Of a stretch of 57,905 nt of DNA, positions 19,368-57,905 are shown one piece after another. This DNA comes from a virus: positions 1-57,905 of the IMG/VR virus record IMGVR_UViG_3300013006_000040, one strand, 5' to 3'. The notes beneath the pieces were generated by a model. The model was not told where the DNA came from. It saw only the letters and a program-made list of their open reading frames with translations, and did no database searches. Numbering within the stretch: the stretch's first letter is position 1; every line of letters starts with the position of its first letter. Made by a program: the position numbers and the translations under genes.

Positions 19368-19368
19368 A

Positions 19369-20457
19369 TTAACGTAAACTACTAGTAAAAATTATTGTTC
19401 CGGGTGAAGAAAACTTGTATATTAAATTTCCTGAAGTGTTTGAGAGTATTACATTACTACCTGTTACTGTTGCGTTTGCGTATAATATAGGATGTGAAAA
19501 TATAACTACACCCGAACCGCCTGCGGCACCCGCACCACTATATCCTGAACCTGTTCCGCCACCCCCACCTGAGAATGCCGTGCCTGCTGTTCCAGCAGTG
19601 GTACTGGGACCGTTTGCACCATTACCGCCACCACCTAGACCCCCTGCAGTAGGGCCAGAATTAATATGACTACCGCCACCCCCACCACCTGCATAATACT
19701 TAGGTGATCCTTCTATATCTAAATTAATACCAATACCGCCTGCAGGAGAATATCCTCCTCCTGGGGCAGGTTCACCCACTCCCCCTGCGCCACCACCACC
19801 GCCTCCCGATCTGCTTGCGCCCGAACCTGCACCTGCTACTCCTGGATATCCCTGAGCACCGGTCGGCGTGTAAAATAATGCTGCTGGACTAGGAAAACCA
19901 GATCCAACACCGACTGTTGTACTTTCCCCGGGTGCGCCACCACCCGAACCACCACCATGCACAGGTGCATTGTATCCCGCAATTGCTCCCCTACCTGCGC
20001 CTCCACCAAATGCAGTTAAGGTAAGTGCACCGCCGATAATTGTTGTGGGTGTGCCTGTAGTAGCACTTGTCGGATCACCTCCGGGACTTGCCGCACCTCC
20101 ACCGCCTACTGTAATTGCATACGGAGTTCCTGAAGAAATAGATAATGTATTACTTGTTAATACGCCACCAGCACCACCTCCAGAACCAGCATTACCTCCG
20201 CCACCGCCACCGCCGGCGATTGCAAGGAATCTAACGGAGGATAGCGGTGAAATTGCTGGCGGAGTCGGAGGAGCAGTATATGGAGCATTAGCATAAAGAT
20301 AATTTACTCCATTAAATGCAGGTATATTATATTCAACCCAAGATGCAGTTGTTCCGTTTAAAGGAACAAGCTTATATATTTTATTAGTGAGGGGATTATA
20401 CCACTCGTCGCCAAGTGCGCCGCTAGGTGGTTGAGTGTTTGATGTTATAAAAGCCAT
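19369..20457 (-). CDS. Glycine-rich tail protein with the shared cap
   Basis: 362 aa. Residues 1-45 repeat the cap of the 1509 aa protein (LGDEWYNPLTNKIYKLVP), then one glycine-rich domain: SVRFLAIAGGGGGGG, a series of GGxG loops, and GGSGVVIFSHP near the end. Such domains form polyglycine-helix bundles in T4-like adhesins (gp38 type) whose variable loops bind receptors. The 1 nt gap to the next gene suggests coupled expression. Confidence 0.82.
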   Translation of the reverse strand: MAFITSNTQPPSGALGDEWYNPLTNKIYKLVPLNGTTASWVEYNIPAFNGVNYLYANAPYTAPPTPPAISPLSSVRFLAIAGGGGGGGNAGSGGGAGGVLTSNTLSISSGTPYAITVGGGGAASPGGDPTSATTGTPTTIIGGALTLTAFGGGAGRGAIAGYNAPVHGGGSGGGAPGESTTVGVGSGFPSPAALFYTPTGAQGYPGVAGAGSGASRSGGGGGGAGGVGEPAPGGGYSPAGGIGINLDIEGSPKYYAGGGGGGSHINSGPTAGGLGGGGNGANGPSTTAGTAGTAFSGGGGGTGSGYSGAGAAGGSGVVIFSHPILYANATVTGSNVILSNTSGNLIYKFSSPGTIIFTSSLR

Positions 20458-20458
20458 A

Positions 20459-25802: not shown

Positions 25803-26720
25803 TTACGTGTTATACGTCCCGGGGCCGATGTATGTTATTACTGTTTTGCTGCCGGCAGTTGTGATACTAGAAGAACCTGGAGCAGAACCCGGATATTTTG
25901 CAGTAGGTATAGCTATAATACAAGCGCCGCCCCCACCCTGGCCGCCCACCATGGTTGGGCTATTTCCAGGTCCCATATTGCCAGGTACTGCTCCATTACC
26001 TGTACCTGGAGCGCCGGCTATCCCTATAGCGGGAGAGGTCCAGATTTGCGGATTAGTATTTCCACCTCGCCCATATGTAACAGTATTAACTGGCCATGTA
26101 TAACCTGCGCCACCTCCGCCACCACCCGTGCCTGGGTTAGGACCCTGGCCGCCAGCACTGGTTGCCCCACCGCCACCATAACCAGCCGAACTACCTCCGG
26201 GGCCGCCCCCTGGGTTTCCTAAATTCTGCGTTATAAAACTATATGAAGGTCCTAGATTTTGCAAGGGTTGTATACCGACACCAAATGCGCTAAAACCGCC
26301 CCCACCAGAACCACCTGGGCCGCCAGTATAAGTAACCGAAAGAGGAGATCCACTCGAACCTCCGCCTCCACCCACAGCGTTGATCGGCACACCCGGCCCA
26401 GTGTAAGGGGTTGTTAAATAACTATTTGACCCCATACCGCCAACGAAGCTTCCCGTGCCCCCACCACCTATAGTAAATGTAACAGGAAAAGATGCTCCTC
26501 CACCTGGCACATTAAAAGACCCAACTACTACGCCTCCGGCGCCACCCGCAGATCCTTGACCATATGCTGCACCATTACCGTTGCCCGCGCCGCCACCCCC
26601 ACCTACAAGCAAAAATTCTAGTGTCCATGGCGAATTACTACTGATGGGAAGAAGACTTGCAGAATTTAATCTGTTAATAGGATTAGCAAAATTTCTTGCC
26701 GCGTGGCGCTTAGTGGACAT
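25803..26720 (-). CDS. Glycine-rich adhesin, C gene of tail cassette 1
   Basis: 305 aa. N-terminal 'RLNSASL' cap (also in cassettes 2 and 3 as RLNAAANL and RVNSANL), then one glycine-rich domain from LEFLLVGGGGGAGNGN to the end. It overlaps the stop of the B gene by one base (TAATG). The cap probably docks on the B protein while the Gly-rich domain faces outward. Confidence 0.8.
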   Translation of the reverse strand: MSTKRHAARNFANPINRLNSASLLPISSNSPWTLEFLLVGGGGGAGNGNGAAYGQGSAGGAGGVVVGSFNVPGGGASFPVTFTIGGGGTGSFVGGMGSNSYLTTPYTGPGVPINAVGGGGGSSGSPLSVTYTGGPGGSGGGGFSAFGVGIQPLQNLGPSYSFITQNLGNPGGGPGGSSAGYGGGGATSAGGQGPNPGTGGGGGGAGYTWPVNTVTYGRGGNTNPQIWTSPAIGIAGAPGTGNGAVPGNMGPGNSPTMVGGQGGGGACIIAIPTAKYPGSAPGSSSITTAGSKTVITYIGPGTYNT

Positions 26721-27052
26721 TAATAAATCTCTGAGCCAAAAACGTTAAAGGATACATTACCCTGAAAAGAATAAACTTGTATTGTATCTGTTGCATCTAA
26801 AGTCATACCCATTGTTAATCCAATTGCATCTTGTGCTGGTAATGCTGTATCATATGCAATATATGAATTAGATGGAGTGGGAGTAATACCTCCCCTTAGT
26901 ACTGCAATTCTAAATGTTACATTAGTTGCAGATGTGTTACATATATTTAATGTGGAAATAACAGCGCTATTTCCCGCAGGTACCGTATATAATGTCGCAT
27001 TTGCGTTTGCCGCAGGAAAAGCTTGCCCGAGAATTTTATATTTAATTGCCAT
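26720..27052 (-). CDS. 110 aa tail protein, B gene of tail cassette 1
   Basis: 110 aa: YKILGQAFP, LYTVPAGNSAVISTLNIC, ALPAQDAIGLTMGMTL, VYSFQGNVSFNVFGSEIY. Three paralogues (here, 43920 and 46471) keep the blocks 'YTVPAG-SA-IST-N-CN', 'LPAQD' and 'YSFQGNVSF--FG-E'. The family is known from T4-like marine phages; all-beta, likely trimeric connector. AAGGAAACAAA precedes the ATG. Confidence 0.8.
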   Translation of the reverse strand: MAIKYKILGQAFPAANANATLYTVPAGNSAVISTLNICNTSATNVTFRIAVLRGGITPTPSNSYIAYDTALPAQDAIGLTMGMTLDATDTIQVYSFQGNVSFNVFGSEIY

Positions 27053-41081: not shown

Positions 41082-42710
41082 TTAGGTCAGTGTTATAGTT
41101 CCGTTTGTTAATGTTATAGGCCCTGTAAGACCACCTGCTCCTCCCGATTGTGATGCCAACGCATTAAAGGGACTGTATAAAAATTTGTTCTTTGTACTTA
41201 ATGTAGAATATCCGTTAAGGTAATCACTTAAATTAACATTACCGGTATTATATATAACATTCGAAACTGATGCCGTATTAGTAGCCCATACTTTTAATTG
41301 TGCCGGACTTACTCCGGGGTTTAATTGTAAAAATGTTGCCAACACACCACATACCTGAGGTGCGGCTTGAGATGTACCACTTAAAACAACTTGTTTAAAT
41401 CCACTATCTAGATTATAACTTACTGCACTAAACCTATTTGTATTACTGCAGCAACTCATTATATTTGACCCAGGCGCCCACATATCTATACCATTGCCGG
41501 AAGTACTAAAAATTGCCTTTTGATCTAAATTTGCAGCATAAACACTTGAATCTAAACATCCAACTTTAAAGGCTTCGTCATCCAAAGGACTGCTACCTCT
41601 GTGCCAGTAATATGTGCCGCCTGCAGAAATGTAATTATTATAATCTAAACCATCAGAAACATCTATTTTTGTGTAGTGGTTACCGCCCGCAATAACCACA
41701 TGTACACCTTCATCTATTAATTCTTGTATATCCGTATCAACCGAACCTACTCTTGTTGATGTGGTATAAGATGTCATGTCCGTTGCCAGTGCATTAACCA
41801 CCCCAAATGGATACAAACCAAAATACCATTTTTTAATATATCCTGATATTTGTGTACCAGAATAATTAGTACCTCTATGGTTTATTCCTGTTATGGCAGA
41901 GGTTGTAATTGTTGTAGTATATCCCCAACTCATATTAACAATGGTTGGTCTTTTCTTTCCTGTGGATGCCTGTATTGGTTTATTTCTATGCCATAATTTA
42001 ATTACATCAAAACAATCTGAAATAGCTATACCTGTACCAGAATCACCTGCACCCTCAAGCCCATTTACCTTAATGGAATACACATTTGCATTCTTTGCCC
42101 AGCCAAAACTTTTGCCTGCAGCAATGCCTGCAACATGAGTCCCGTGACCATCATAATCTCTGTAATGGTTTGCATTTTGCGTACCACCCAATCCACTGGC
42201 AGTATACCAATCTATTTGTTGTACACGTGAATTGCCTCTGGCATCTGTAAATTCCGGATGCGCTACTTCTAATCCGCTATCCTGTATAACAACGTCTACA
42301 CCTGTGCCATCTAGAAAATAATCATAGTATGAAACGGATGATGTTAAATTTGAACCAAACACATTGTTATTATTACTTATACGAACCAGACCCCAGTTTA
42401 CATTCGCACCATTGGATGTTGTGGGTTTATTAAAATTGCCGGTTTGTCTTGCTCTGATACCTATTTCAATATCTGTTCTTTGATCTGGAGGAATTTCTAC
42501 AGAATAAACTCTATCGTCATTTTGTAATGTAGTTGCTTCCGCATCTGTAAGTGAGTAATGACAGCTACGCAAACTGCCGTCTCTGTTGTTTACTATATCT
42601 ACACGCCTATTAGGTACAAAAAGGAGTCCTTCTGTCTCGGACTCCATTTGTGACCAAAATAAATTATAGTCTACGTCACGTTTTAAACTGACGATATATT
42701 CTTTTAACAT
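41082..42710 (-). CDS. Subtilisin-like serine protease with propeptide
   Basis: 542 aa. N-terminal I9-like propeptide (EYIVSLKRD, then SCHYSLTDAEATTLQ and RVYSVE). The catalytic triad is complete: Asp144 in VIQDSGLEVAHPEF, His189 in DGHGTHVAGI, Ser447 in LSGTSQAAPQ; oxyanion Asn344 in AGGNHY. The last ~40 residues (SGGAGGLTGPITLTNGTITL) look like tail protein sequence. It may be virion-bound and clip host surface proteins, or process neighbouring adhesins. Confidence 0.92.
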   Translation of the reverse strand: MLKEYIVSLKRDVDYNLFWSQMESETEGLLFVPNRRVDIVNNRDGSLRSCHYSLTDAEATTLQNDDRVYSVEIPPDQRTDIEIGIRARQTGNFNKPTTSNGANVNWGLVRISNNNNVFGSNLTSSVSYYDYFLDGTGVDVVIQDSGLEVAHPEFTDARGNSRVQQIDWYTASGLGGTQNANHYRDYDGHGTHVAGIAAGKSFGWAKNANVYSIKVNGLEGAGDSGTGIAISDCFDVIKLWHRNKPIQASTGKKRPTIVNMSWGYTTTITTSAITGINHRGTNYSGTQISGYIKKWYFGLYPFGVVNALATDMTSYTTSTRVGSVDTDIQELIDEGVHVVIAGGNHYTKIDVSDGLDYNNYISAGGTYYWHRGSSPLDDEAFKVGCLDSSVYAANLDQKAIFSTSGNGIDMWAPGSNIMSCCSNTNRFSAVSYNLDSGFKQVVLSGTSQAAPQVCGVLATFLQLNPGVSPAQLKVWATNTASVSNVIYNTGNVNLSDYLNGYSTLSTKNKFLYSPFNALASQSGGAGGLTGPITLTNGTITLT

Positions 42711-43011: not shown

Positions 43012-43920
43012 TTAGAATGTTATTGTTCCTGAAGCACTAAATTTATAAACTCTATATCCACCGGAAGTAGAATATATTACATTGCTACCTGTGTTTGCAG
43101 TTGCAATTGGATATGCTGTTGGATATCTAAGAACTACAATACCTGAGCCACCTTGTCCTCCAGCAAACGTAGACCAGTGACCTGCTCCACCCCCACCTCC
43201 AGTATATTCATTTCCTGCTGTCCCGAAAGTACCGTTTCCGCCTGGGCCCCCTCCGCCTTGTCCTCCGAGTGCCCACTGCCCATTTGATGCACCCCCACCG
43301 CCGCCGGCATAATAACTTACACTTCCGGAAATTGATGATTGAACTCCAATCCCACCGACACCTACAACTTCTCCATTTGCTCCAATTCCGCCAGCTGCAC
43401 CCGCACCACCGCCACCAGAACCACCCGAGCCTGGAGGATATGTGCCTGTACCTGCACCACCCGGATATCCTTGTTGGCTTGGGCTTGGATATCCATAACC
43501 AGAACCTGCAGCTGCGGTAAGATCCTTACCTACACCACCGCCCGAACCTCCAGATCTTCCTGCTAAACCATTTGAACCACCGCCCCCTCCACCCACCGCA
43601 TTAAATATGCCAAAACTTCCTGAGATGTTGGAATTCGCTCCATTAGTCGCAATAGAATATGGCGCGCTGCCCGCAGGTGCGCCTGCTCCGCCGGCTCCGA
43701 CAAGTATAGTATAAGGCAAGGTCGTCGATACTGTTGCAGTTCCTGTCAATAGTCCACCCGCTCCGCCACCGCCGCCGCCGCCGGATCCACCACCGCCACC
43801 ACCGGCTACTATTAAGTATTCTACATTAAAATCATATCTAGAAAGAATTAATGATAAATTAGCAGCAGCATTGAGCCTTTGCGAAGAACCTCTTCTAGAA
43901 GTACCTAGCTTAAAGCCCAT
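43012..43920 (-). CDS. Glycine-rich adhesin, C gene of tail cassette 2
   Basis: 302 aa. Cap with 'SSQRLNAAANLSLIL', then VEYLIVAGGGGGGSGGGG and many GGxG loops, a GGSGIVVLRYP close, and a C-terminal strand (GGYRVYKFSASGTITF). The same layout as the C genes at 25803 and 45485 but with different loops. Starts one base inside the B stop (TAATG). Confidence 0.8.
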   Translation of the reverse strand: MGFKLGTSRRGSSQRLNAAANLSLILSRYDFNVEYLIVAGGGGGGSGGGGGGGAGGLLTGTATVSTTLPYTILVGAGGAGAPAGSAPYSIATNGANSNISGSFGIFNAVGGGGGGSNGLAGRSGGSGGGVGKDLTAAAGSGYGYPSPSQQGYPGGAGTGTYPPGSGGSGGGGAGAAGGIGANGEVVGVGGIGVQSSISGSVSYYAGGGGGASNGQWALGGQGGGGPGGNGTFGTAGNEYTGGGGGAGHWSTFAGGQGGSGIVVLRYPTAYPIATANTGSNVIYSTSGGYRVYKFSASGTITF

Positions 43921-44249
43921 TAGGTAATCTCCGTACCAAATGCTGCAAAACTTACGTTACCCTGAAATGAATATGCTGTAATAACATCTGTATTACCTAA
44001 AGTCATACCTAAAGATACAGCCATTGTGTCTTGTGCTGGAAGAGCAGAATCAAACACAATAAAATGTTTAGATGTACCCGTTACGCCTGCTGGTCTAATT
44101 GATAATCTAAATGTAACATTGGATGTAGATTGATTACATACATTTACTGTTGAAATAATTGCGCTGGTGCCGGCTGGAACAGTATACAAATTTACATTTG
44201 CACCTGCTGCTGGAATTTCTTGTCCTAAAACTTTATATGTATACGCCAT
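43920..44249 (-). CDS. 110 aa-type tail protein, B gene of tail cassette 2
   Basis: 109 aa: YKVLGQEIP, LYTVPAGTSAIISTVNVC, ALPAQDTMAVSLGMTL, YSFQGNVSFAAFGTEIT. Paralogue of 26720-27052 and 46471-46803. AAGGAAAAATAA precedes the ATG. Probably the connector between A and C. Confidence 0.8.
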   Translation of the reverse strand: MAYTYKVLGQEIPAAGANVNLYTVPAGTSAIISTVNVCNQSTSNVTFRLSIRPAGVTGTSKHFIVFDSALPAQDTMAVSLGMTLGNTDVITAYSFQGNVSFAAFGTEIT

Positions 44250-45484: not shown

Positions 45485-46471
45485 TTACCCTAGATAGCCT
45501 GTAGTGTCTATTAGATATCTAATAATAACTTTTCCAGAACCACCCGCGCCCGCAGAACCACCCGACCAATTACCGCCACCTCCACCGCCAGAATTAATGG
45601 TACCGGGTTGATTATTATTATTAGCATATGTGTCACCAAACCCTCCCCCGCCGGCGCCACCAGATCCACCGATATTTAGAGGAGAAAATGCATCCGATCC
45701 TCCACCGCCTCCTGCATAGTATGTAGAATATCCAGATATTGTAGATATGCCACCAGCGCCACCATCGCCAGCTTGAGGTCCAGAAGTACCTGCCGCTCCT
45801 CCACCACCACCGCCTACCCCATCACTACCCCCTACTCGAAGAGTCTTTGATACCCCAGGAGTAGCTGACCCCCCAGAATTTCCTTGCCCAGGTGTACCGT
45901 TACCGCCCACACCTCCATAAAAATTACCACCAGCACCGCCACCCGATCCGCCAGGCCTACCATTCTTTTGAGTATTTGCTGGAGAGGGTGTAGAATCTCC
46001 AACCCCGCCGCCGCCGCCACCGCCTAGCGATTGAATAGTTGAAGGTGTTACTGTACTATTGAAAATAATATTACTAGGCGAACCATCATTACCATAGGTA
46101 ACACTCGGGCCACCCGCACCGCCACCCCCGATTCGGATAACATTATTTGCTGTTTGTGTAAATGTTACGTTACCAGATAATATACCGCCACCGCCACCAC
46201 CTGCACCTCCTGCGGTAGCACCTGAACCGCCACCGCCAATAATTAAATAATCTATTACATTATAGGTAGGCGAGGTTACAGATAAACCGGTAATAGATAA
46301 ATTAGATGATGCATTAAATGAATGTATTCTGTAACCACCTACATTTGTTTGGATTCCGCCGGTCACCTGCATGGTAGAATAATATCTACTTGCGATAAAT
46401 GCTAGATTAGCAGAGTTTACTCTATTATTAATAGATACAGTACTTCTCTGCGAATGTCGACGAATTGGCAT
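45485..46471 (-). CDS. Glycine-rich adhesin, C gene of tail cassette 3
   Basis: 328 aa. Cap INNRVNSANLAFIASRYY, a strand linker ending with NVIDYLIIGGGGSGATAG, then Gly-rich loops ending GGSGKVIIRYL. Paralogue of the C genes of cassettes 1 and 2, with a longer linker. TAATG overlap with its B gene. Confidence 0.8.
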   Translation of the reverse strand: MPIRRHSQRSTVSINNRVNSANLAFIASRYYSTMQVTGGIQTNVGGYRIHSFNASSNLSITGLSVTSPTYNVIDYLIIGGGGSGATAGGAGGGGGGILSGNVTFTQTANNVIRIGGGGAGGPSVTYGNDGSPSNIIFNSTVTPSTIQSLGGGGGGGVGDSTPSPANTQKNGRPGGSGGGAGGNFYGGVGGNGTPGQGNSGGSATPGVSKTLRVGGSDGVGGGGGGAAGTSGPQAGDGGAGGISTISGYSTYYAGGGGGSDAFSPLNIGGSGGAGGGGFGDTYANNNNQPGTINSGGGGGGNWSGGSAGAGGSGKVIIRYLIDTTGYLG

Positions 46472-46803
46472 TAATTAACCTCTGAACCAAACAATGTAAA
46501 GGTTACATTGCCTTGAAATGAATATACTGTTATTTTATCTGTCGCCGCCAAAGTCATACCTAAAGAAAGACCTAATGCATCTTGTGCAGGTAATGCTGCA
46601 TCATATACTATTGCCTGCGATGTTGTGTTACCTGCCGCACCTGCAATTCTTGCATATACTCTAAATGTTACGTTGGATTGAGTAGTATTACATACATTTA
46701 TTGTGGAAATAATAGCACTGTTACCTGCAGGAACTGTGTATATGTCATAATTTGTAGCGTTTGTGGGCATTGCTTGCCCTAAAATTTTAAATGTTGTTGC
46801 CAT
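46471..46803 (-). CDS. 110 aa tail protein, B gene of tail cassette 3
   Basis: 110 aa: FKILGQAMP, IYTVPAGNSAIISTINVC, ALPAQDALGLSLGMTL, VYSFQGNVTFTLFGSEVN. Closer to cassette 1 B than to cassette 2 B in the C-terminal blocks. AAGGAAAAATT precedes the ATG. Confidence 0.8.
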   Translation of the reverse strand: MATTFKILGQAMPTNATNYDIYTVPAGNSAIISTINVCNTTQSNVTFRVYARIAGAAGNTTSQAIVYDAALPAQDALGLSLGMTLAATDKITVYSFQGNVTFTLFGSEVN

Positions 46804-46812
46804 AATTTTTCC

Positions 46813-47952
46813 TTATAATCCGCTAAGCATAAACGATATTGGATTAACTCCGCCGATTACTGTTGTAGTTGAATTAATAGTAGATGTTGTTCCAAAATAT
46901 CTAATTTCAAGATTAGATCCCACTGGATATTGTGTAGTAGTTGTTAATGTTGTACCAGATACTGTGTAATCTGTCGTTGGTATTTGTATCAAACCCTCAT
47001 TTATAACAAATATAGATTCGGGATTTGCCACTGATCTTGACATTGTATATGTTGTCGTTGCCGCTAATATAGATATTGTTTCTGTTGCAGCAACAGTAAT
47101 TCCAACAATATTTGCACTAATTTGACCATTGGCCAATATGCTAACATTTTGACCAGCTAATGAAGGTAATAGACCAATTACATTAGAAGAGACTCTTGCG
47201 TTGGTATAGTAAAGATTTGAGCCTTCAGCCAAGTTGCTAGTTGTTAATCCTGCTAATGATACTGTAGCAGTACTAGCATTGATTTGGCCATTCGCTTGAA
47301 TCTGTATACCAGAGCCAGCTAATGAGGGTAATAGACCAATTACATTTGAATAAACTCTTGCATTGGTGTAATATAAATTACTACCTTCAACTAAATTAGC
47401 AGTAGTGAAATTGCTTAATGATAGTACAGTATTGGCTACATTTGAAGATGTTGCGAATCCAGATGTTGCTGATGCATTTGCATTTATCTGTCCATTAGCT
47501 TGAATCTGTATGCCTGAACCTGCCAATGTAGGCAATAATGCAATTACATTTGAATAAACTCTGGCATTGGTATAATATAAATTGCTACCTTCTGCAACAT
47601 TAGATGTTGTTAGATAAGGTAATACTGCGGATATTACTCTGGCATTGGTATAATAAAGATTGGATCCTTCTGCAACATTAGATGTTGTTAGGAATTGACT
47701 AATTGATGCGAATGTTACTACAGCAGCATTTGCGCTAATCTGACCGTTAGCCTGTATAGCAATACCGGAACCAGCCAATGCAGGCAATAATGCTATTACA
47801 TTTGAATATACTCTTGCATTAGAGAAGTAAAGATTTATACCTTCAGTAATATCCGAAGTTGATATAACCTGAGCCGTAGGCCAATCGTTGCCTACTTGTC
47901 TCAAGTAAGCTGTACCTAAATTAAATATACCTCGACTATTAATTATTGACAT
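46813..47952 (-). CDS. 'LYYTNARV'-repeat protein, A gene of tail cassette 3
   Basis: 379 aa. The N-terminus (RQVGNDWPTAQVISTSDITE) is shared with the gene at 50953-52572, so these two belong to one sub-family. Six 'AEGSNLYYTNARV'-type repeats follow, then a beta-rich end and GGVNPISFMLSGL. A CATAAATA late promoter candidate lies 26 nt upstream. Confidence 0.8.
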   Translation of the reverse strand: MSIINSRGIFNLGTAYLRQVGNDWPTAQVISTSDITEGINLYFSNARVYSNVIALLPALAGSGIAIQANGQISANAAVVTFASISQFLTTSNVAEGSNLYYTNARVISAVLPYLTTSNVAEGSNLYYTNARVYSNVIALLPTLAGSGIQIQANGQINANASATSGFATSSNVANTVLSLSNFTTANLVEGSNLYYTNARVYSNVIGLLPSLAGSGIQIQANGQINASTATVSLAGLTTSNLAEGSNLYYTNARVSSNVIGLLPSLAGQNVSILANGQISANIVGITVAATETISILAATTTYTMSRSVANPESIFVINEGLIQIPTTDYTVSGTTLTTTTQYPVGSNLEIRYFGTTSTINSTTTVIGGVNPISFMLSGL

Positions 47953-47977
47953 CTTTTTTCTTTATACTGTTACTGTA

Positions 47978-47985
47978 TATTTATG
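47978..47985 (-). promoter_or_regulatory. T4-type late promoter candidate
   Basis: Minus-strand CATAAATA, one mismatch to TATAAATA, 26 nt before the ATG at 47952. The surrounding CATAAATATACAGT is repeated at 52592, so the whole upstream region was probably duplicated. Confidence 0.5.
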
Positions 47986-47990
47986 GCTTT

Positions 47991-50948
47991 TTAAACGTAC
48001 GGGTATCTAATAATAATAATACCCGAAGCGCCGCTGCCGCCCGCATAATTACCGCCGCCCCCCGATCCTCCAGAACCGCCGCCCCCAGTATTTTGCAATC
48101 CACTTAAACCTACGTTATCGTTTTGACCATTTGCTCCTCCACCATAACCTCCAAGTTTTCCACTATACACCGTCGGCCAACCGGTGGAGCCTGCGCCACC
48201 ACCAAAATATCCTTTACCGGATACATTGCTTACAGAATTGGTTACATTGGTTCCGTATCTATCAAAATTCGCAAAATATTTACCTCTACCACCTTGGCCT
48301 GGATATGTTGCGTCGTTATAAGCAAATCCGCTAGTGCCCATACCCCCACCAGAAGATCCGGCACCATTTCCTAAGTCACTTAAACCAAATGCACTTAATG
48401 TATTTCCAGATGCCCCGCCGTATCCTCGTATGTTAATATCCCCGTTATTATGAGACACGCAATATTGTCCCCGGAAACCTGTCTGTGCAAACCCAATCGT
48501 ACCGCCAGATAAAATACTTGAACTTGTACCATTCGCAGAATCACCTGCAGGATAACCTGTGCCTCCTGCGCCACCACCACCCACAAGCATACCAAAATTA
48601 TTTACAGTTGCGGTAATAGATCCGGTATTTCCATTACCGCCACCACCACCGCCTCCGCTATAAAATGTGCCGTTACCTGCAGCACCGCCGCCACCGGCAC
48701 CAATAACTAGATAATCCATAGAATTATTAGCAGGAGTAACAGTAGCTACTGAATTTACAAGTAAATTACCCGATGTAGTAAATGAATGATACTTATATCC
48801 ATTCACTATTGTTATATTTCCACCTGTTGCATTAATGTAGAAGTCTGAAACATTATATAGTACAACATTACTACTACTGGTTATTGATATTGGGCCTGTT
48901 GTAGAATCTTGTCTTATTTCTAATCCAAAAATCTTAGATACATCTAGTATTGCACTGCTATTTGTTTGCAGGGTGATCGTTGCACCCGTAGTATTTGCCG
49001 TAAATGAACCAGTATTTCCACCAATGAAATGCGAGGAATTTGCATTACCTGATGTAGAATAATATAATGTAGTACCGTTTGCATTTAGAACAGAAAGATT
49101 AAATATTACATTTCCGCCAGTTAATACGTTGGTTGAACTTGTTGTTAGAGTTGTAAAGTATTGTCCGGTAAATGGATATCGTATAATAACAATGCCAGAA
49201 CCGCCCGTTCCGCCCGCATTATATACTGATGGAACAGGAGTTGTGGCTGGAATACCTGCGCCACCTCCGCCTCCCCCAGTATTAATAGTACCAGGAGTGC
49301 CTCCTGAACCAGATCCACCTCCACCGCCTCCGCCAGCGCCACCGCCACCGGCATATCCAACGAAAGGCCCAGGCGTTGGGTGACCTCCGTTGGATCCTCC
49401 TCCGCCGCCACCAGCAAAATACCCGCTAGGGCCCCAAGTACCAAATGCTGTAGGATTTCTACCAACACCACCTGAAGCAGAAAAACTACCATATGGTTGT
49501 GGTGATTCATTAGTAGCTGCGCCACCCGCCCCACCCCCAGCAGCAGCATTTGAACCATTTGGACCTTGTGCAGAATTACCTGGGTATCCCTCTGTAGCAA
49601 TACCGGTTCCATTTGCTCCAGGTTGGCCGCCGCCACCCGAACCGCCAGGATAACCTACACTACCTGAATATCCGCCGGCACCGCCTCCTGTGGTCGAAAC
49701 ATTAGTCCAACTTGGTCCTGTGCCAGTAATTGAACTTGGATTTCCTTGTACACCTGGACTAGGACTAGATGGGGCGGTGCCACCGGCGCCAACTGTTATT
49801 GTATAATTTTGTCCCGCAGCAACATAATTTGCAGGTTGTGCTGTAGAACTTGGGCCACCTGATAATTCGCCTGATACATTTAATTTATAACCTCCGGCGC
49901 CTGCACCTGAGCCTTTACCTGCGTTATTTGTAGGTCCTCCGCCTCCCCCTCCTGCAACAACTAAATATTCAATAGCTCCGCCAGTTGTACCTATACCTGT
50001 AACAGATAGATTTGAAGATGTATTAAAGGTATGATACTTATAGCCATTAAGAACTGTTATATTACCGCCAGTAGCGGCCATTTGTGTTAGAGAAGAATCA
50101 TTTATTAATAAGTTATTACTTGTGGCTAATACTGTTCCTGTTACAGAATCTCTTCTTATTCTTACTCGGAAATCTACAGATGTTCCATATGGGACTGCTG
50201 AAGTTGTAACTAATGATATAGTATTAGAAACACTATTCATTCTAAATGAACCTGTATTTCCGCCAGTAAAGTTTGAGGTTGTTACGTTACCGGTGGTATC
50301 ATAATATAGCAATGTACCTGCAGATATATTAATAACATTCGCTGTTAATGTTAACGTACCACCCTCAGTTGCACTACTTGCGCTTTCAACAAAACTCAAT
50401 ACATTGTACTGATTGGATGTATCTAGAACTGTTACGTTGGATGATGTGATAACAACATTACCGTTAGTATTATTAGTTCTAATTTGCAGTGTAAACGCTT
50501 CAGTTGTTTCATCAAATAAAGATACGTCAGCGTTTGTAGTTAACCTAAGTGTTCCCACGTTATTTGCGATAGTAATTACACCAGTATTGCCACCAACAAA
50601 GTCATTGCTATTTACGTTGGCTGTTATTATAGAATTTGTAGTATAATATACATTAGTACCGTTTACAACATTAGATGTCGTTAATGTATATAATATTACG
50701 TTGCCCTCTGCTGCTGTAGTTGCATTTGCTGTTAAACTAACAATAGTTGTTGTATCAGGAATAGTAATAGTATTTGATGTGCCAATAACTGTGCCTGTAA
50801 ATCCTTCTTTGCGAAGTTTAACTACGAATGTTTTTGTACCTTCAAATGCAAAAGCTGATAAAGGCAAAACAATATTGGCCAAGCCACCTGCTACTGTGAC
50901 TGTACCTTGAAGCGCATTTGCTGCGAAATTACTTGCGAATATTGGCAT
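47991..50948 (-). CDS. Calx-beta-like and double glycine-rich tail protein
   Basis: 985 aa. It opens with the second half of a Calx-beta-like domain (ASNFAANALQGTVTVAGG, FEGTKTFVVKLRKEGFTG), followed by further complete Calx-beta-like repeats (VYYTTN..., DDETTEAF-type ends), then two glycine-rich domains with a Calx-like domain between them. The first half of that opening domain is at the end of the upstream gene. No ribosome site is obvious. Likely a receptor-facing tail protein. Confidence 0.78.
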   Translation of the reverse strand: MPIFASNFAANALQGTVTVAGGLANIVLPLSAFAFEGTKTFVVKLRKEGFTGTVIGTSNTITIPDTTTIVSLTANATTAAEGNVILYTLTTSNVVNGTNVYYTTNSIITANVNSNDFVGGNTGVITIANNVGTLRLTTNADVSLFDETTEAFTLQIRTNNTNGNVVITSSNVTVLDTSNQYNVLSFVESASSATEGGTLTLTANVINISAGTLLYYDTTGNVTTSNFTGGNTGSFRMNSVSNTISLVTTSAVPYGTSVDFRVRIRRDSVTGTVLATSNNLLINDSSLTQMAATGGNITVLNGYKYHTFNTSSNLSVTGIGTTGGAIEYLVVAGGGGGGPTNNAGKGSGAGAGGYKLNVSGELSGGPSSTAQPANYVAAGQNYTITVGAGGTAPSSPSPGVQGNPSSITGTGPSWTNVSTTGGGAGGYSGSVGYPGGSGGGGQPGANGTGIATEGYPGNSAQGPNGSNAAAGGGAGGAATNESPQPYGSFSASGGVGRNPTAFGTWGPSGYFAGGGGGGSNGGHPTPGPFVGYAGGGGAGGGGGGGSGSGGTPGTINTGGGGGGAGIPATTPVPSVYNAGGTGGSGIVIIRYPFTGQYFTTLTTSSTNVLTGGNVIFNLSVLNANGTTLYYSTSGNANSSHFIGGNTGSFTANTTGATITLQTNSSAILDVSKIFGLEIRQDSTTGPISITSSSNVVLYNVSDFYINATGGNITIVNGYKYHSFTTSGNLLVNSVATVTPANNSMDYLVIGAGGGGAAGNGTFYSGGGGGGGNGNTGSITATVNNFGMLVGGGGAGGTGYPAGDSANGTSSSILSGGTIGFAQTGFRGQYCVSHNNGDINIRGYGGASGNTLSAFGLSDLGNGAGSSGGGMGTSGFAYNDATYPGQGGRGKYFANFDRYGTNVTNSVSNVSGKGYFGGGAGSTGWPTVYSGKLGGYGGGANGQNDNVGLSGLQNTGGGGSGGSGGGGNYAGGSGASGIIIIRYPYV

Positions 50949-50952
50949 ATCT

Positions 50953-52572
50953 TTATTCTATGGTGTAATATAAAACGGTGCCTTCTGGCACTGAAGTATT
51001 AAATGTAACTATTGCTGTATTGGCAGCTGATACTGATGGAGACGTAAAACTTACAGTAGTTTGTTCAGTCTTTCTATATGATGTAAATACTGCTATAGAA
51101 TCAGCATTGCTTGAATTTGCATAACTTGCGTATAATGCATCATATTGTTTCAATGCTTTAGGTGATTGTAATATCTCAAGAGAGGATCCTGCGGGCACTT
51201 GCATATTATATGCCAAGTATGCTTTTGGAACTGCTGTTGTAGAGTTGGCAAAATATAATTTAACTGGAATGTTTGTTGGTTTTAGATTAACAAACTTTAT
51301 ACTTTCAATAACAAAATCTGTTGTGTCTGCTGTTACTAATGATACGTTTGAATTTGCATTTGCCAGTGTTTGACCTACGCCTACATAGGAAACATCATTT
51401 GTAATTGTTTCATAAGTTAAGTATGCGGATAAAATATTACTAGTGGGTGTAAAATTATTATCGAATCCTTGGAAGTATAATGAATCACCAGATTGTAAAA
51501 TTTGTGTTCTATTGATAAATTCAACAAATCCACCTAACGGAACACTGATTAAATTACCAAGATAAGCAGTATTGCCTGCAGAATATCTTACGTTAGCAGA
51601 AACATATGCCAAATTGCTTTCAGATATGTTTGTAATTTGTATAGATCTAATAATGAATCTATCTGCAGCAATTGAACCTGTAAATGTTACACCTGCCATA
51701 ATATTAGATACAGTATATGCTGTTGCGCCGGTTAAACTAATATTGTAATCGCCACCTGCGGCAGTGCTCTTGATTGTACCATCACCAAGAATAGAAATAC
51801 CTTTACCTGCAGTAAATGCTGTTCTGGCTCTTGTATTGGTGTAGTAAAGGTTTGACCCTTCTGCTAAATTGGTAGTGCTTAATCCTGCTAATGATACCGA
51901 TTGCGTATTTGCATTAATTTGACCATTGGCTTGTATGTTAATGCCTGTACCAGCCAATGTGGGTAACAATGCGATTACATTGGAATAAACTCTTGCATTA
52001 GTATAATAAAGATTTGTTAATTCTGTTACATTAGCAGTTGTTAAATCTGTTACATTTGCCTTTAATGCAAGATTACCTTGTATTGCTGAATAAACTCTAG
52101 CATTAGTATAATAAAGATTAGATCCTTCTGCAACATTTGATGTTGTCAAATACGGAAGAACTGCAGATATTACTCTGGCGTTAGTATAATAAAGATTAGA
52201 TCCCTCTGCAACATTTGATGTTGTCAAATACGGAAGAACTGCAGATATTACACGAGCGTTAGTATAATAAAGATTCGATCCCTCAGCAACATTAGATGTT
52301 GTTAATAATGAAGAAACAAACGATAATACTCTAGCGTTGGTATAATAAAGATTTGTTAACTCAGATACATTTGCTGTGGTTAGATCAGAAACATTAGCCT
52401 TTAAAGCCAAATTACCTGATACTGCAGCATTTACTCTGGCATTTGTAAAGTAAAGGTTAGTACCTTCGGTTATATCCGAAGTTGATAGAACCTGAGCCGT
52501 AGGCCAATCGTTTCCTGTTTGTCTAAGGAATACGTCAGCTGTATCAAATATACCTTTGTTGATTATCGTCAT
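50953..52572 (-). CDS. 'LYYTNARV'-repeat protein ending in half a Calx-beta-like domain
   Basis: 539 aa. N-terminus RQTGNDWPTAQVLSTSDITE, about eight LYYTNARV repeats (two of them almost identical at DNA level), a beta-rich C-terminal domain also found in the next A-like gene (ESIKFVNLKPTNIPVKLYFA), and the final SVPEGTVLYYTIE. The stop comes exactly where a Calx-beta-like domain would continue; the rest opens the next gene after 4 nt. Confidence 0.8.
   Translation of the reverse strand: MTIINKGIFDTADVFLRQTGNDWPTAQVLSTSDITEGTNLYFTNARVNAAVSGNLALKANVSDLTTANVSELTNLYYTNARVLSFVSSLLTTSNVAEGSNLYYTNARVISAVLPYLTTSNVAEGSNLYYTNARVISAVLPYLTTSNVAEGSNLYYTNARVYSAIQGNLALKANVTDLTTANVTELTNLYYTNARVYSNVIALLPTLAGTGINIQANGQINANTQSVSLAGLSTTNLAEGSNLYYTNTRARTAFTAGKGISILGDGTIKSTAAGGDYNISLTGATAYTVSNIMAGVTFTGSIAADRFIIRSIQITNISESNLAYVSANVRYSAGNTAYLGNLISVPLGGFVEFINRTQILQSGDSLYFQGFDNNFTPTSNILSAYLTYETITNDVSYVGVGQTLANANSNVSLVTADTTDFVIESIKFVNLKPTNIPVKLYFANSTTAVPKAYLAYNMQVPAGSSLEILQSPKALKQYDALYASYANSSNADSIAVFTSYRKTEQTTVSFTSPSVSAANTAIVTFNTSVPEGTVLYYTIE
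52141..52296 (-). repeat. Two 78 bp tandem repeats in the fibre gene
   Basis: Units start at 52141 and 52219 and encode 26 residues each (with SNVAEGSNLYYTNARV). They differ at only a few bases, far less than the other LYYTNARV units, so this is a recent duplication. Repeat number could vary between strains. Confidence 0.75.
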
Positions 52573-52591
52573 CTTTTTTCTTTATACTGTA

Positions 52592-52599
52592 TATTTATG
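52592..52599 (-). promoter_or_regulatory. T4-type late promoter candidate
   Basis: Minus-strand CATAAATA, 20 nt before the ATG at 52572. The surrounding sequence (CATAAATATACAGT) repeats that upstream of 47952. Confidence 0.5.
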
Positions 52600-52602
52600 G
52601 CA

Positions 52603-54789
52603 TTAGAATATTATGGTACCTGAACTGTAGAATGAATATATTAGGTTAGATCCGTCTGAGGTATAACTTACATTAGATCCTGTCACCGTTGCTGGTCTAA
52701 ATGCGCCAGGATATCGGAATATCGCTACACCCGATTCACCTGCAGCTCCACCTCCACCTAGACCCCCACCTTGGCCGCCTCTACCATAGTAGCCTGTACC
52801 CGGAGTTCCTGCGCCAGATGGTGATCCGCCACCTCCACCGCCAGCATAAACTACAGAAGTACCAGTAATTGATGACGGTAAACCATTTCCTCCAGAACCA
52901 CCTGGGCCGTCTGAATTTCCAGCTCCACCTATTGCACCAGCACCACCACCACCGCCACCGCCCCGTGTGCTACCTGAACCTGAACCTGAGCCACCCGGAT
53001 AACCTTGTTGTGTTGGACTTGGATATCCATAACCACTACCTATGCCGGCTCCGTCTGAGCCACCGCCACCTGAACCACCATTTGTAGTTCCACCCGTGTT
53101 TGAACGACCAGCGCCACCGCCAACTGTAATTAATAGATTGGATGTGGGACTAGATAATATTGTGTTAGCGCCACTAGTGGCTGAAGTAGTTGCGTATACT
53201 CCGGCTGCACCTGCCGCACCTACTGTAACGGTATAAGATGTGCCTGCAGTTACAGGATATGATGCCGATGTGGTAAATCCACCAGCACCACCGCCACCTC
53301 CAGAGCCAGCGCCTGACTGACCAAAGCCACCGCCACCGCCGCCTGCAACTAATAGATAATCTATGCTAGATGTACCTGCTACAGTTACGGGATAACGTAT
53401 AATAGCTATACCGGAACCGCCAGAACCAGCTAAATAAGATGGACTAGCTCCGCCTCCACCTCCACCGCCGGTATTTACGTTTCCGCCAAATGCCTGCAAA
53501 GCCTGAGGACCAGCCATTGCTCCACGACCACCACCACCAGATCCACCATCACCTGGGGTACCAGTATTTGCGTCAGTTGAGCCACCGCCCCCTCCAGAAA
53601 AATGTCTACCGGGTGCTGGCCCAGGTGTGCCATAAGATGAGGGTATACCTGCAAAGGTAGGAACAAGACCAATACCACCAACGCGAGGACCATTTTGAAA
53701 TCCATTAAATGTTGCACCTGCGCCACCTGCGCCACCGCCACCTGCGCTGGACTGTCCTATTGGATTGGAACCTATAATGCTTCCTCCAGGATAACCCTGT
53801 GAGCCTGCAATATTTAAACCTGGGCTGCCTATAGCCAGCCCTCCCGGGGCTCCTCCAGGACTATCACCTGCACCGCCACCACCTGATCCCCCAGGTTGAC
53901 CATTTTGCACAGGTGATACATAATCGTCACCGCCGCCGCCCCCAAATGCAATAGCACCAAATATACTCGTATTGGCTCCCTGACCGCCAAGTGTATTTCT
54001 GGCAGGGGCCGCAGTACCGCCGGCACCTACAATAATACTACTAGTACCAGAAATAGAAATATTTCCCATTAATATACCGCCTGCCCCTGCACCAGAGCCA
54101 GGGTATGGATTGGAAGCGCCTATTGCCCCTCCACCTCCACCCGCAACTAACATATAATCTATAGTAATGTTAGATGAAGGATTTGATATTACAAAATTAT
54201 TAGATGATTGGAATACGTGATACTTATATCCGCCGAATGTGAATGTGTCATTACCTCCAGATGCATTAATTTCTGCATTAGATGTATCTAATACGTTAAT
54301 AGTATTTGAAGTATAAACTATATTACCTGCAATATTACTTGTTCTAATATCAACTCTAAATGATTCTACACCTTCTGTTATATTATCTGCATTTGAATTA
54401 AATGTAAACGATCCTGTATTATTATTAATTGTTATAATACCAGTATTTGCACCTATAAAATCAGGAAGATTTATATTTGAGGTGTAGTAAACATTGGATC
54501 CGTTAACAGCATTTGCCGTTGTCAAGGTAAATGTCACTGCCTGTCCCTCATTAATTGAGGATACATTAGAAGTTAAACTAACAACAGAACTCGAATCCTG
54601 TAATGTTATCGTTGGAGATACTGCAAGTACTTCGCCGGTTGGACTACCGTTTCTTAATTTAATTACAAAAGATTTGTTACCTTCTAGTGCATAAGGAATA
54701 GTATCAAGTGAGATATTTGCAAAGCCGTTAATAACACTAACGGTGCCCGATAATGAGTTTGATCTAAAATTACTTGCGGAGATTGGCAT
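52603..54789 (-). CDS. Calx-beta-like and double glycine-rich tail protein
   Basis: 728 aa. It opens MPISASNFRSNSLSGTVSV, again the second half of a Calx-beta-like domain, ending EGNKSFVIKLRNGSPTG. One full Calx-like repeat (VYYTSNINLPDFIGANTG) and two Gly-rich domains follow. Paralogue of 47991-50948. No good ribosome site; translation is probably coupled to the upstream gene. Confidence 0.78.
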   Translation of the reverse strand: MPISASNFRSNSLSGTVSVINGFANISLDTIPYALEGNKSFVIKLRNGSPTGEVLAVSPTITLQDSSSVVSLTSNVSSINEGQAVTFTLTTANAVNGSNVYYTSNINLPDFIGANTGIITINNNTGSFTFNSNADNITEGVESFRVDIRTSNIAGNIVYTSNTINVLDTSNAEINASGGNDTFTFGGYKYHVFQSSNNFVISNPSSNITIDYMLVAGGGGGAIGASNPYPGSGAGAGGILMGNISISGTSSIIVGAGGTAAPARNTLGGQGANTSIFGAIAFGGGGGDDYVSPVQNGQPGGSGGGGAGDSPGGAPGGLAIGSPGLNIAGSQGYPGGSIIGSNPIGQSSAGGGGAGGAGATFNGFQNGPRVGGIGLVPTFAGIPSSYGTPGPAPGRHFSGGGGGSTDANTGTPGDGGSGGGGRGAMAGPQALQAFGGNVNTGGGGGGGASPSYLAGSGGSGIAIIRYPVTVAGTSSIDYLLVAGGGGGGFGQSGAGSGGGGGAGGFTTSASYPVTAGTSYTVTVGAAGAAGVYATTSATSGANTILSSPTSNLLITVGGGAGRSNTGGTTNGGSGGGGSDGAGIGSGYGYPSPTQQGYPGGSGSGSGSTRGGGGGGGAGAIGGAGNSDGPGGSGGNGLPSSITGTSVVYAGGGGGGSPSGAGTPGTGYYGRGGQGGGLGGGGAAGESGVAIFRYPGAFRPATVTGSNVSYTSDGSNLIYSFYSSGTIIF

Positions 54790-54793
54790 ATTC

Positions 54794-57700
54794 TTATTCT
54801 ATTGTGTAATATAAACCGGTGCCTTCGTTCGCAGAAGTGCCAAACGATGCTGTTATAGTATTTCCAGGTAATCCTGCGGAAGTATATGTTCCAATTGTAT
54901 ATGCCGCACCATATCTTGCTGATACAAATGCCGATACGCCATTAGTTGCTCCGCCAGTATAGCTCGCATATAATGCATCACCTTGATTTATACGCTTCGT
55001 AGATTGTAACAATTCTACAGATGTGTTAGGTGGTAATTGTAAACCAAATGCCAAATGAGCTTTTGGCACACCGTTTGCATCACCCCAATAACACGTAACG
55101 GGAACAGTTGTGGATTGAAGATTTACAAACTTAACACTTTCAATAATACTAAATGAGTTCGCGGAATTATATATCTTCGTATTAGTACCAGATGTAGCTA
55201 TCGTCTGACCTGTGCCCATATAACTATTATCGTTATAGAACGTCTCGTATGTTAGCATTACGGACATTAAATTCGCAGTAGCTGTACCTGAATTATTAAA
55301 TCCCTGCAAGTTAATTTGGTCGCCTGGTTGGAATATTTGATATGTTTTAATAAATTCCATTACTCCACCAGGTGCAACCGGGATTATATTTGCCATATAT
55401 GCTGTGTTACCTGTAGCATATAAAACATTACTTGATACTAATGCTGTTGCGCCAGATGTATTTACCAAATGCAATGAGCGTAATAAGAATCTATCATTTG
55501 CTGCAGTTGTTGGGAATGTTATTACTGGCGACATTGTTGCCAGTACGTTAGCTCCAACTGTGCCATCAATACCGGTGTTATACTGTGAAGAAGAACCTGT
55601 ATTATTAACAATACCGCCTTCACTAATAGTAATACCTTTACCTGCGGTGAATGCTGTTCTGACTCTAGTATTGGTGTAATAAAGATTTATACCCTCTGCA
55701 ACATTTGATGTAGTCTGATTAGATAATGAAATTACCTGTGCTGCAAGATTAACAAAGTCTGATTGAAGTATAGTAACATTAGATAAATCTAAGTTTGCAC
55801 TAATTCTACCATTTGCCTGAATAATAATATTTTGACCTGCCAATGTAGGCAATAATGCAAGCACATTGGAATAAACACGAGCATTTGTAAAGTATAGATT
55901 TGTACCTTCAACTACATTAGAAGTGATTAAATCGACTACATTTGCTTTGGTTGATAAATTACCCTGGATTGCCGCATAAACTCTTGCATTAGTATAATAT
56001 AAATTGCTACCCTCTACTACATTTGAAGTAGTTAAATAAGGTGTTATAGCTAGTGCAACGCGAGCATTTGTAAAGTATTGGTTAGTGCCTTCTGCTAAAT
56101 TAGCAGTTGTAAAGTTACTTAGTGTTCCCGCAGTGCCTGATACATTACCAAAGAATGTTGTTGCTGCAATATTAGCTAATCTAAATGATGCGTGAGCTGT
56201 ATCAATAAAGATGTTAGCATCGGGTTCTGGATCATAATTATCAAATACCTTGAATGTGCCATTGTCGGATGCGTCTCTAAAGAAACCACCGTGATGATAA
56301 ACACCATCATTATAATTAAATGCAAAGCCTATATCAGGATTCGAAACAGTGGAGTTCGAATTCAAATATATCATATTATCCGAAACGGATATATTATTTG
56401 CACCGTATGTAGTTACACCGCCGTATACAGTTAAGTTATTTGTAACACTAAGATTAAAGAATGTTACATTAGCAGTTGATGCTACATTCTGTCCAATTGA
56501 TATTGCACCTGTAGTTGTATCATAACTTACACCAGTGCCACCACTTAAAGCAGATCTTACTCTAGTATTGGTATAATATAAATTAGAATTTGATTCTAAT
56601 ACGTTAGCAGTAGTTAAAAGAGGAGTAACTGCAGTTATAACTCTACCATTGGTATAATATAAATTATTATTACCTTCGGTTATGCTATTAGTAGTCAAAT
56701 TACTAATAGTCGAATTTAAATTAGCAATTTCAAGATTTACATTTGCGCTAATTCTACCATTAGATTCAATTACAATATTATCGCCAGCAATAAATGCGGT
56801 TCTAACTCTAGAATTGGTATAGTATAAATTGACGTTTGCTTCTAATAAGTTTGCTGTAGTAAGTCCACTTAAAGATAATACAGTATTTGCAACATTTGCT
56901 GTTAGAGCAATATTGGCTGTGCCGGCGGTGTTAGCAAACAACGCAATATTTGCTGTTGTACCTGAGTCTATAGTGCCTGCAACAAAACTTGCACCATTCC
57001 AAATTAATATACCGTTGGTAGTAATACCTGTTGTATCGACGTCTGAAAATATATTAACACTTTGCTGGGATAAATTAGCAGTTACTCTTGCATTAGTGAA
57101 GTATTGATTAGTGCCTTCTGCTAAATTAGATGTAGTAAAATTAGATAATGAACTTATTGTACCTGTTACATTACCTACAAATGAGTTGGTAACTACAAGA
57201 TTGCCTGTAGTAATATTTGAAGCCGTAAGACTAACTAAGGTTAGACCCGTTTGCGCATTGCCTGATATCTTCTGACCACCGACATATAATGACTCTGCAC
57301 TTAAGTAAAAGTCTTTCCATTGTTTATCTAATGATCCAAAATTGAATGTGGAATCTAGAGACGGTATAATGTTACCAGTAATAAGTATATTACCAGAAGA
57401 GGCAAGCAAATTCCCGGTTTGAATATATGATGCGGATATTAAATTGGCACCTGTTAAGGAACCACCTGATCCTGCACCGAACGTAGTGCTACCAGATATG
57501 CTAACATTGCCTATAGTTGCATTACCTATAGCAATATTACCTGCTAATAATGCTATTACATTAGAATAAACTCTGGCATTGGTATAATATAAGTTTGTGC
57601 CTTCTGCTACATTTGAAGTAGTTAAGTATGGAAGGACTGCAGATATTACGCGAGCATTTGTATAGTAAAGATTGGAATTTGATTCTAATACGTTTGCCGT

Positions 57701-57905
57701 AGTTAAATAAGGAGTTACTGCTGATATAACACGAGCATTGGTATAATATAAATTAATACCTTCTGCTAAATTTGCTGTGGTGAAATTGGATAATGTACTT
57801 ACTGTACCAATTAAATTACCATATATCAATCTCGATATAATTGCATTACCTGCAAAAATATTTGCTGCAGTAAAATCTGTGGCTGTTCCGGTGGATGTTG
57901 TTACT
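54794..57905 (-). CDS. Long 'LYYTNARV'-repeat fibre protein, 5' end beyond window
   Basis: At least 1037 codons are open; the frame continues past 57829 to the right edge, so the N-terminus is missing. It has at least ten LYYTNARV-type repeats. A middle domain (SDNMIYLNSNSTVSNPDIGF, then GFFRDASDNGTFKVFDNY) is typical of marine T4-like tail fibres. The C-terminal domain matches that of the gene at 50953 and ends SANEGTGLYYTIE, with the same split Calx-beta-like boundary. Confidence 0.8.
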   Translation of the reverse strand, partial: VTTSTGTATDFTAANIFAGNAIISRLIYGNLIGTVSTLSNFTTANLAEGINLYYTNARVISAVTPYLTTANVLESNSNLYYTNARVISAVLPYLTTSNVAEGTNLYYTNARVYSNVIALLAGNIAIGNATIGNVSISGSTTFGAGSGGSLTGANLISASYIQTGNLLASSGNILITGNIIPSLDSTFNFGSLDKQWKDFYLSAESLYVGGQKISGNAQTGLTLVSLTASNITTGNLVVTNSFVGNVTGTISSLSNFTTSNLAEGTNQYFTNARVTANLSQQSVNIFSDVDTTGITTNGILIWNGASFVAGTIDSGTTANIALFANTAGTANIALTANVANTVLSLSGLTTANLLEANVNLYYTNSRVRTAFIAGDNIVIESNGRISANVNLEIANLNSTISNLTTNSITEGNNNLYYTNGRVITAVTPLLTTANVLESNSNLYYTNTRVRSALSGGTGVSYDTTTGAISIGQNVASTANVTFFNLSVTNNLTVYGGVTTYGANNISVSDNMIYLNSNSTVSNPDIGFAFNYNDGVYHHGGFFRDASDNGTFKVFDNYDPEPDANIFIDTAHASFRLANIAATTFFGNVSGTAGTLSNFTTANLAEGTNQYFTNARVALAITPYLTTSNVVEGSNLYYTNARVYAAIQGNLSTKANVVDLITSNVVEGTNLYFTNARVYSNVLALLPTLAGQNIIIQANGRISANLDLSNVTILQSDFVNLAAQVISLSNQTTSNVAEGINLYYTNTRVRTAFTAGKGITISEGGIVNNTGSSSQYNTGIDGTVGANVLATMSPVITFPTTAANDRFLLRSLHLVNTSGATALVSSNVLYATGNTAYMANIIPVAPGGVMEFIKTYQIFQPGDQINLQGFNNSGTATANLMSVMLTYETFYNDNSYMGTGQTIATSGTNTKIYNSANSFSIIESVKFVNLQSTTVPVTCYWGDANGVPKAHLAFGLQLPPNTSVELLQSTKRINQGDALYASYTGGATNGVSAFVSARYGAAYTIGTYTSAGLPGNTITASFGTSANEGTGLYYTIE

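Follow-up and report, generated by a model that had tools for sequence, protein, structure and literature searches.

Tail-fibre shaft and glycine-rich adhesin genes of uncultivated marine phages may share an Ig-like domain divided by the gene boundary

The right end of IMG/VR virus record IMGVR_UViG_3300013006_000040, which was analysed whole (57,905 bases; 'the window'), carries four minus-strand genes, A, B, C and D. We read A–B and C–D as two-gene tail-fibre cassettes, each with a shaft and a glycine-rich adhesin that would be joined non-covalently through a domain shared by both proteins; the probability of this reading is put at roughly two in three. A would be the shaft and B the adhesin, with the gene boundary in a loop of the immunoglobulin-like (Ig-like) domain that connects them. 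The ribosome would terminate A at TAA and reinitiate at an ATG 4 nucleotides (nt) on, the C-terminus of A would supply the first strands of the domain and the N-terminus of B the remaining strands, and both chains would complete one β-sandwich that holds the adhesin on the shaft non-covalently. Boundaries between genes usually fall outside folded domains, and here a boundary apparently inside one is repeated and conserved in likely host-recognition gene arrays of marine phages. If the halves complement each other, this would be a naturally occurring split-domain joint of which one genome carries several divergent pairs, and a glycine-rich adhesin would be attached to its fibre in a new way. 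For annotation, this calls for caution, as two such genes may form one structural unit.

The break at both loci of the window

The features of the two cassettes are as follows.

54794–57904, minus strand: gene A, predicted fibre shaft containing NLYYTNARV-type repeats; it runs off the contig, which lacks its 5' end; the paralogue C has a tail-fibre PHROG match
about 54929–55504, minus strand: conserved C-terminal core of A, with the half-domain next
54797–54928, minus strand: A-half, the last 44 amino acids (aa) of A, putative initial strands of the divided Ig-like domain; weak profile match when taken alone
54790–54796, minus strand: break A/B, stop TAA (54796–54794) and 4-nt spacer GAAT (54793–54790), then ATG at 54789; no Shine–Dalgarno sequence seen
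54592–54789, minus strand: B-half, the first 66 aa of B, putative remaining strands of the A-half's domain
52603–54789, minus strand: gene B, 728 aa, with half-domain, intact Ig-like domain and glycine-rich region
about 54286–54591, minus strand: intact Ig-like domain in B, ~100 residues, directly after the B-half
about 53392–54204, minus strand: best Gly_rich_2 stretch in B
50953–52572, minus strand: gene C, paralogue of A, with a tail-fibre PHROG match; A-half at 50956–51087
50949–50955, minus strand: break C/D (copy 1), TAA and AGAT, then ATG at 50948
47991–50948, minus strand: gene D, paralogue of B, 985 aa; B-half at 50751–50948

NLYYTNARV-type repeats were present in both A and C, whose C-terminal regions were 46 % identical, while B and D were 47 % identical and both possessed Gly_rich_2 regions (Pfam E-values 5.8e-31 for B and 2.3e-15 for D). 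A ends with GTGLYYTIE and TAA, followed by GAAT, after which B opens with ATG CCA ATC, encoding MPISASNFRSNSLSG; C ends with GTVLYYTIE and TAA, followed by AGAT, and D opens with ATG CCA ATA. The LYYTIE-TAA end, the MPI.ASNF start 4 nt on and the +1 offset are common to both copies, so that the break at 54794/54789, and its equality with C/D in gap and offset, are as a preliminary description of this DNA had reported. A degenerate pattern for YYTIE-TAA-N4-MPI matched the window only at the two breaks (mean 0.00 matches in 100 shuffles). The same description held that the flanking codons differ; they are instead rather alike, since 12 of the 15 synonymous-testable codons beside the break were identical between the copies, compared with 94 of 185 farther off (Fisher p = 0.026). 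Short gaps are ordinary in the window, 36 of the 67 in a hand-picked minus-strand gene list lying between −4 and +10 nt, and a gap of exactly 4 nt was found in three of the 67, two of these being A/B and C/D.

Relatives on other viral contigs

Scans of viral contigs, two of which used patterns inside the shaft core, yielded eight further IMG/VR records (G001 to G008), and the whole records were then searched with the A profile. Cassettes with the junction region and both genes visible numbered 17 on nine records (two in the window, two in G001, one in G002, one in G003, three in G004, two in G005, two in G006, three in G007 and one in G008). A further cassette, truncated by the end of the G008 contig, still shows its break, and an adhesin-like ORF (open reading frame) without a visible start lies at the edge of G001. 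The shaft cores of the G003 and G005 copies are nearly equal to those of G004, the first of G006 nearly equals the third of G004, and the G008 cassette has the same length as the second of G006 and is 100 % identical to it across the 358 residues compared. In this way 12 distinct cassettes were recognized, 11 of them split and one (G006, L045 3469–5928) a single ORF of 819 aa that comprises the shaft, both Ig-like domains and the glycine-rich part.

Strand names used here derive from a model, profile positions and an alignment, there being no solved structure. The loop between strands C and D of the first domain (C–D loop) is broken in eight of the split cassettes, with gaps of 4 nt in window A–B, window C–D, G002, G004a and G004c, 3 nt in G001b, 2 nt in G007b and 1 nt in G004b. 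The other three breaks lie in the E–F region of the second domain (G001a, gap 9 nt), after strand A of the second domain (G007a, 0 nt) and in a hairpin (G007c, 0 nt). The adhesin gene thus begins 0–9 nt downstream of the shaft gene in all 11 (4 nt in the window) and always opens with ATG, whereas six cassettes have a frame offset of +1, four of 0 and one of +2. In G004 (L034 4425–15238), three shaft–adhesin cassettes follow one another in tandem, 43 and 37 nt apart, and one and the same loop is broken in all. In G007 (L053 589–6105), the break in the hairpin that heads the glycine-rich module, with its 0-nt gap, extends the habit beyond the Ig-like domain.

Every record is an uncultivated virus contig, which leaves some room for errors of assembly or sequencing, or for a fibre gene in decay. 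The chance of this is practically negligible, since a like break occurs on nine records, the downstream ORFs of 553–1106 aa remain open and the ratios of non-synonymous to synonymous substitution (dN/dS) are below 1. The earlier dismissal of a sequencing error is upheld by the presence of the arrangement in the window and in relatives on eight other IMG/VR records.

Several searches found nothing: a scan of viral contigs for the strict YYTIE-TAA-N4-MPI pattern, scans with the C-terminus of A as a single sequence or as a two-row profile, tblastn of the whole of B and of its N-terminus in phages, a near-DNA search of window 46800–57905 in phages, and the seven-row A profile against genome contigs. 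Pattern matches were also dropped on translation, namely two of the three in one scan (L005 and L006, L007 being kept) and seven of the nine in another (L008, L009, L010, L011, L013, L014 and L015, L012 being kept). In the marine viruses AG-345-L05 and AG-345-O18 the shaft core ends before the half-domain and a gene of a different type comes next, with no split; AG-345-F15 has an intact Ig-like domain in a different gene. Pelagibacter phage HTVC023P possesses glycine-rich genes, with no split domain in the three genes translated.

One domain in two genes

A profile was built solely from B-protein second domains, seven of them, all intact. In all seven cassettes compared with it, the A-halves covered positions 2–15 to 37–38 and the B-halves positions 46–55 to 110–111, and the joined A-half and B-half outscored the B-half alone. 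The unsplit domain in the other cassette of G001 aligned across both halves. When the profile was enlarged with the two intact domains from the single-ORF relative, G007b matched at 2–40 and then 46–112 (A side E-value 1.5e-10) and G001a at 3–73 and then 78–111. ORFs ending in an A-half were followed within 1–4 nt by an ORF with a B-half from residue 1 in 11 of 11 instances (seven loci, no orphans), the half-domain profiles for this count having been built from seven of those 11.

The relative L012 was modelled with AlphaFold2 as a single chain, its in-frame TAA being read as Q (mean predicted local distance difference test score, pLDDT, 82.5; predicted template modelling score 0.60). Three strands precede the junction (204–207, 216–223 and 230–237) and five follow it (252–256, 261–268, 277–285, 291–295 and 299–301). 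Most entries in the list of structural neighbours were due to the shaft core (model residues 91–201). When B was modelled alone, residues 1–30 had pLDDT 58–65, with no strand of at least three residues before residue 39, and residues 31–60 had pLDDT 72–85. The B-half is β in the L012 read-through model, and a helix of at least four residues occurs there in neither model, although the B-alone confidence is low in this part.

On the strength of the complementary profile coverage, the unsplit homologue aligned through both sides, the single-ORF relative and the structure model, the A-half and B-half look like complementary parts of one Ig-like β-sandwich, which the two chains would probably complete together.

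Several points weigh against this. The case for it draws on sequence and on a single-chain read-through model of L012, whose alignment had 12 rows, mostly unpaired halves; the pLDDT blocks of the domain ranged from 48 to 88, and the first strand (204–207) lies in a stretch below 50. Model residues 203–304 resembled β-mannosidase, the aligned part of which we take to be an Ig-like domain (92 residues, root-mean-square deviation 2.8), at a Z score of 7.5, which is suggestive, although unrelated sandwiches also reach this level. Comparison with B modelled alone gives a hint only, as query and alignment differ from those of the L012 model. The A-half alone matched weakly (E-values 0.006–0.1 with the seven-domain profile), window A being the weakest, and the joined match of window A starts only at profile position 15. 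With the enlarged profile, the A side alone gave E-values of 0.03–1.7 across the seven main-group cassettes; the window A-half gave 0.93, not significant by itself, and a stretch upstream of it was slightly better (0.3). The profile had no match in the last 23 residues of A in G007a, where strand A was assigned by eye, and the G007c break lies outside the Ig-like domain (A-side E-value 0.058). Pfam Ig and Calx-beta models gave no match at E-values up to 1. Some of the scans were seeded with the junction or the B-half, so the ratio of 11 split cassettes to one joined is not a frequency. Moreover, the linkers between domains are short, so that a boundary placed at random would often be intradomain; for this reason '11 of 11 breaks inside a domain' was set aside as a statistic.

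The weak A-half matches, the pLDDT of 72–85 reached by residues 31–60 of B alone and the predicted nature of the association would also suit two separate small functional tails, the A-half capping the shaft and the B-half docking elsewhere, with their common descent a matter of history. This is unlikely, because the halves were seen solely as adjacent pairs (11 of 11), both remain conserved and the single-ORF relative keeps them within one domain.

Translation of the second gene

Anti-Shine–Dalgarno pairing was absent upstream of B and D (−0.3 and +0.2 kcal/mol, compared with a median of −4.3 for the 67 listed starts), as it was for several other tightly packed genes of the window. In G001a (L024 4063–4100), the stop overlaps TAAGGAG, five bases before the ATG and inside the domain-coding region, and the sister cassette in G006 reads straight through at this position; the TAAGGAG and ATG together look like a real second start. 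Given the spacing and the lack of a Shine–Dalgarno sequence, separate translation of B by termination–reinitiation is most likely and would be the natural reading in the window.

The alternative is programmed recoding, in which a +1 shift at GAA-TAA, or read-through in the in-frame relatives, would produce an A–B fusion with the whole domain. Six of the 11 distinct split cassettes are indeed +1 with GAA preceding the stop, the likeness of the break codons between the window copies could be explained by an RNA-level signal or by gene conversion, and phage Ig-like extensions made by +1, −1 or in-frame decoding are described in PMC5009743. Recoding nevertheless seems improbable: offsets vary among the relatives, with the in-frame G001b nested among +1 cassettes, the second ORF opens with ATG in every case and TAAGGAG precedes one of them, and tRNA-Glu would be expected to re-pair poorly on AAU. 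Fusion by recoding would call for different mechanisms in different relatives.

History and selection

A tree of the shaft core was reconstructed from 15 rows, 14 of them different, with G007 outside the tree. The eleven instances of the C–D loop break then known formed a single group, whose support (90/93) fell short of the tool's star and in which window A and window C stood apart, the latter with G002 and G001b (98/97). The single-ORF cassette and G001a were sisters (100/99). The root is uncertain, as long branches meet the outgroup. From this grouping, with window A and C apart, the duplication and the C–D loop break are probably older than these phages. The two window copies are paralogues descended from an old cassette and do not represent independent origins. 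The second cassette of G007 shared 54 % identity with the single-ORF cassette in the best segment yet was split at the C–D loop, and breaks or fusions therefore occurred more than once.

Across seven cassettes, the A-half had a mean pairwise identity of 0.46 and the B-half one of 0.55, and the shaft core and the intact domain both had 0.54. In three pairs, dN/dS was 0.14, 0.16 and 0.47 for the A-half and 0.22, 0.23 and 0.42 for the B-half, compared with 0.14–0.20 for the shaft core and 0.23–0.36 for the intact domain. Purifying selection thus acts on both halves, with somewhat less constraint in one pair.

Equal gap and offset in the two copies had been offered as a sign of selection for the split. 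That argument fails, because the window copies are paralogues and, among the relatives, gaps range from 0 to 9 nt and each of the three offsets occurs; that the split is maintained is nevertheless better supported. Random gap lengths and offsets at homologous loci had been named as evidence to the contrary, and the gap lengths do vary in this manner among the relatives, yet the split stays.

A neutral gene fission, in which stop and restart changes divided one gene and the pieces re-associate with no benefit from the split itself, is possible although not favoured; it shares the association step with the cassette reading proposed here, and the odds of the two overlap. Four different turns are broken within one family and one cassette is unsplit, as such a history would allow. 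Against it, the C–D loop break is found in all 11 instances of one tree group, seven of which have shaft cores that diverge by as much as 57 %, although this group came partly from junction-seeded scans and loss elsewhere could be missed. A function of the joint between shaft and adhesin is favoured because the C–D loop break was long retained, both halves are conserved and the halves are adjacent.

Comparison with known systems

The closest working analogue, with no claim of membership, appears to be gp37–gp38 of T2/S16-type phages, described as having a separate glycine-rich receptor-binding tip in which the N-terminal part of gp38 contacts gp37 (PMC12892980, PMC9608196). B is likewise glycine-rich, a predicted adhesin with its own gene directly downstream of a fibre gene. 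S16 gp38 is reported to attach via three short α-helices (PMC9608196), whereas the attachment predicted here is part of an Ig-like sandwich, the other part of which ends the shaft gene; the B-half did not present an N-terminal α-helical attachment segment of the gp38 type. A phmmer search of B against PDB chains gave one match, unrelated (E-value 0.25), glycine-rich sequence being hard for this test and the presence of gp38 among the chains unchecked.

Ig-like domains are added to phage structural proteins via programmed frameshifting in T3, A2 and PSA, as described in PMC5009743. The likeness lies in an Ig-like domain of a virion gene whose coding crosses a stop, sometimes with a change of frame; here, in contrast, the break lies inside the apparent domain, an ATG of its own opens the second ORF and the offset is not conserved. 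In donor-strand complementation of chaperone–usher pili, a strand from another chain completes a subunit. Another chain is predicted to complete the fold in the present cassettes too, but with about three strands against four or five, and in phage fibres. Branched receptor-binding proteins of Klebsiella phages are described as carrying docking peptides on T4gp10-like domains (PMC6872550). They resemble the cassettes in the non-covalent joining of fibre proteins via terminal segments and differ in that the peptide docks on an intact domain and does not complete a shared one. Among the papers listed by literature searches, no title or displayed abstract described two phage genes sharing a divided fibre domain.

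The preliminary description had proposed that the two halves bind each other and so join separate trimeric fibres. Their apparent nature as complementary parts of one domain agrees with the first part of this proposal; the joining of two separate fibres is unproven, and a shaft joined to its own tip is favoured because the YYTNAR-repeat shaft is followed by the glycine-rich protein and because of the single-ORF relative. This placement in the virion is a prediction. More tentatively, this marine phage family may keep the boundary inside a β-domain as a plug and socket, with a half-domain socket at the end of the shaft and the plug that fits it at the start of the adhesin. Cassettes arrayed in tandem, of which a contig has up to three, could then swap tips through re-pairing or recombination, and the fibres that bind the host would become mosaic.

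Other genes of the window

Three genes of 109–110 aa (43920–44249, 46471–46803 and 26720–27052) resemble the shaft core over part of its length (about positions 93–164 of the profile), each directly upstream of a glycine-rich gene whose start it overlaps by 1 nt. Three adjoining genes 1 nt apart (14838–22423) have the common start MAF..S.TQPP.G.LGDEW.NP and glycine-rich regions; in one of them, of 1509 aa, there are baseplate-wedge PHROG matches as well. A 542-aa gene with a protease PHROG match (41082–42710) lies downstream of the fibre genes, and ORFs alike to it by eye were present downstream of the fibres in G002 and G007.

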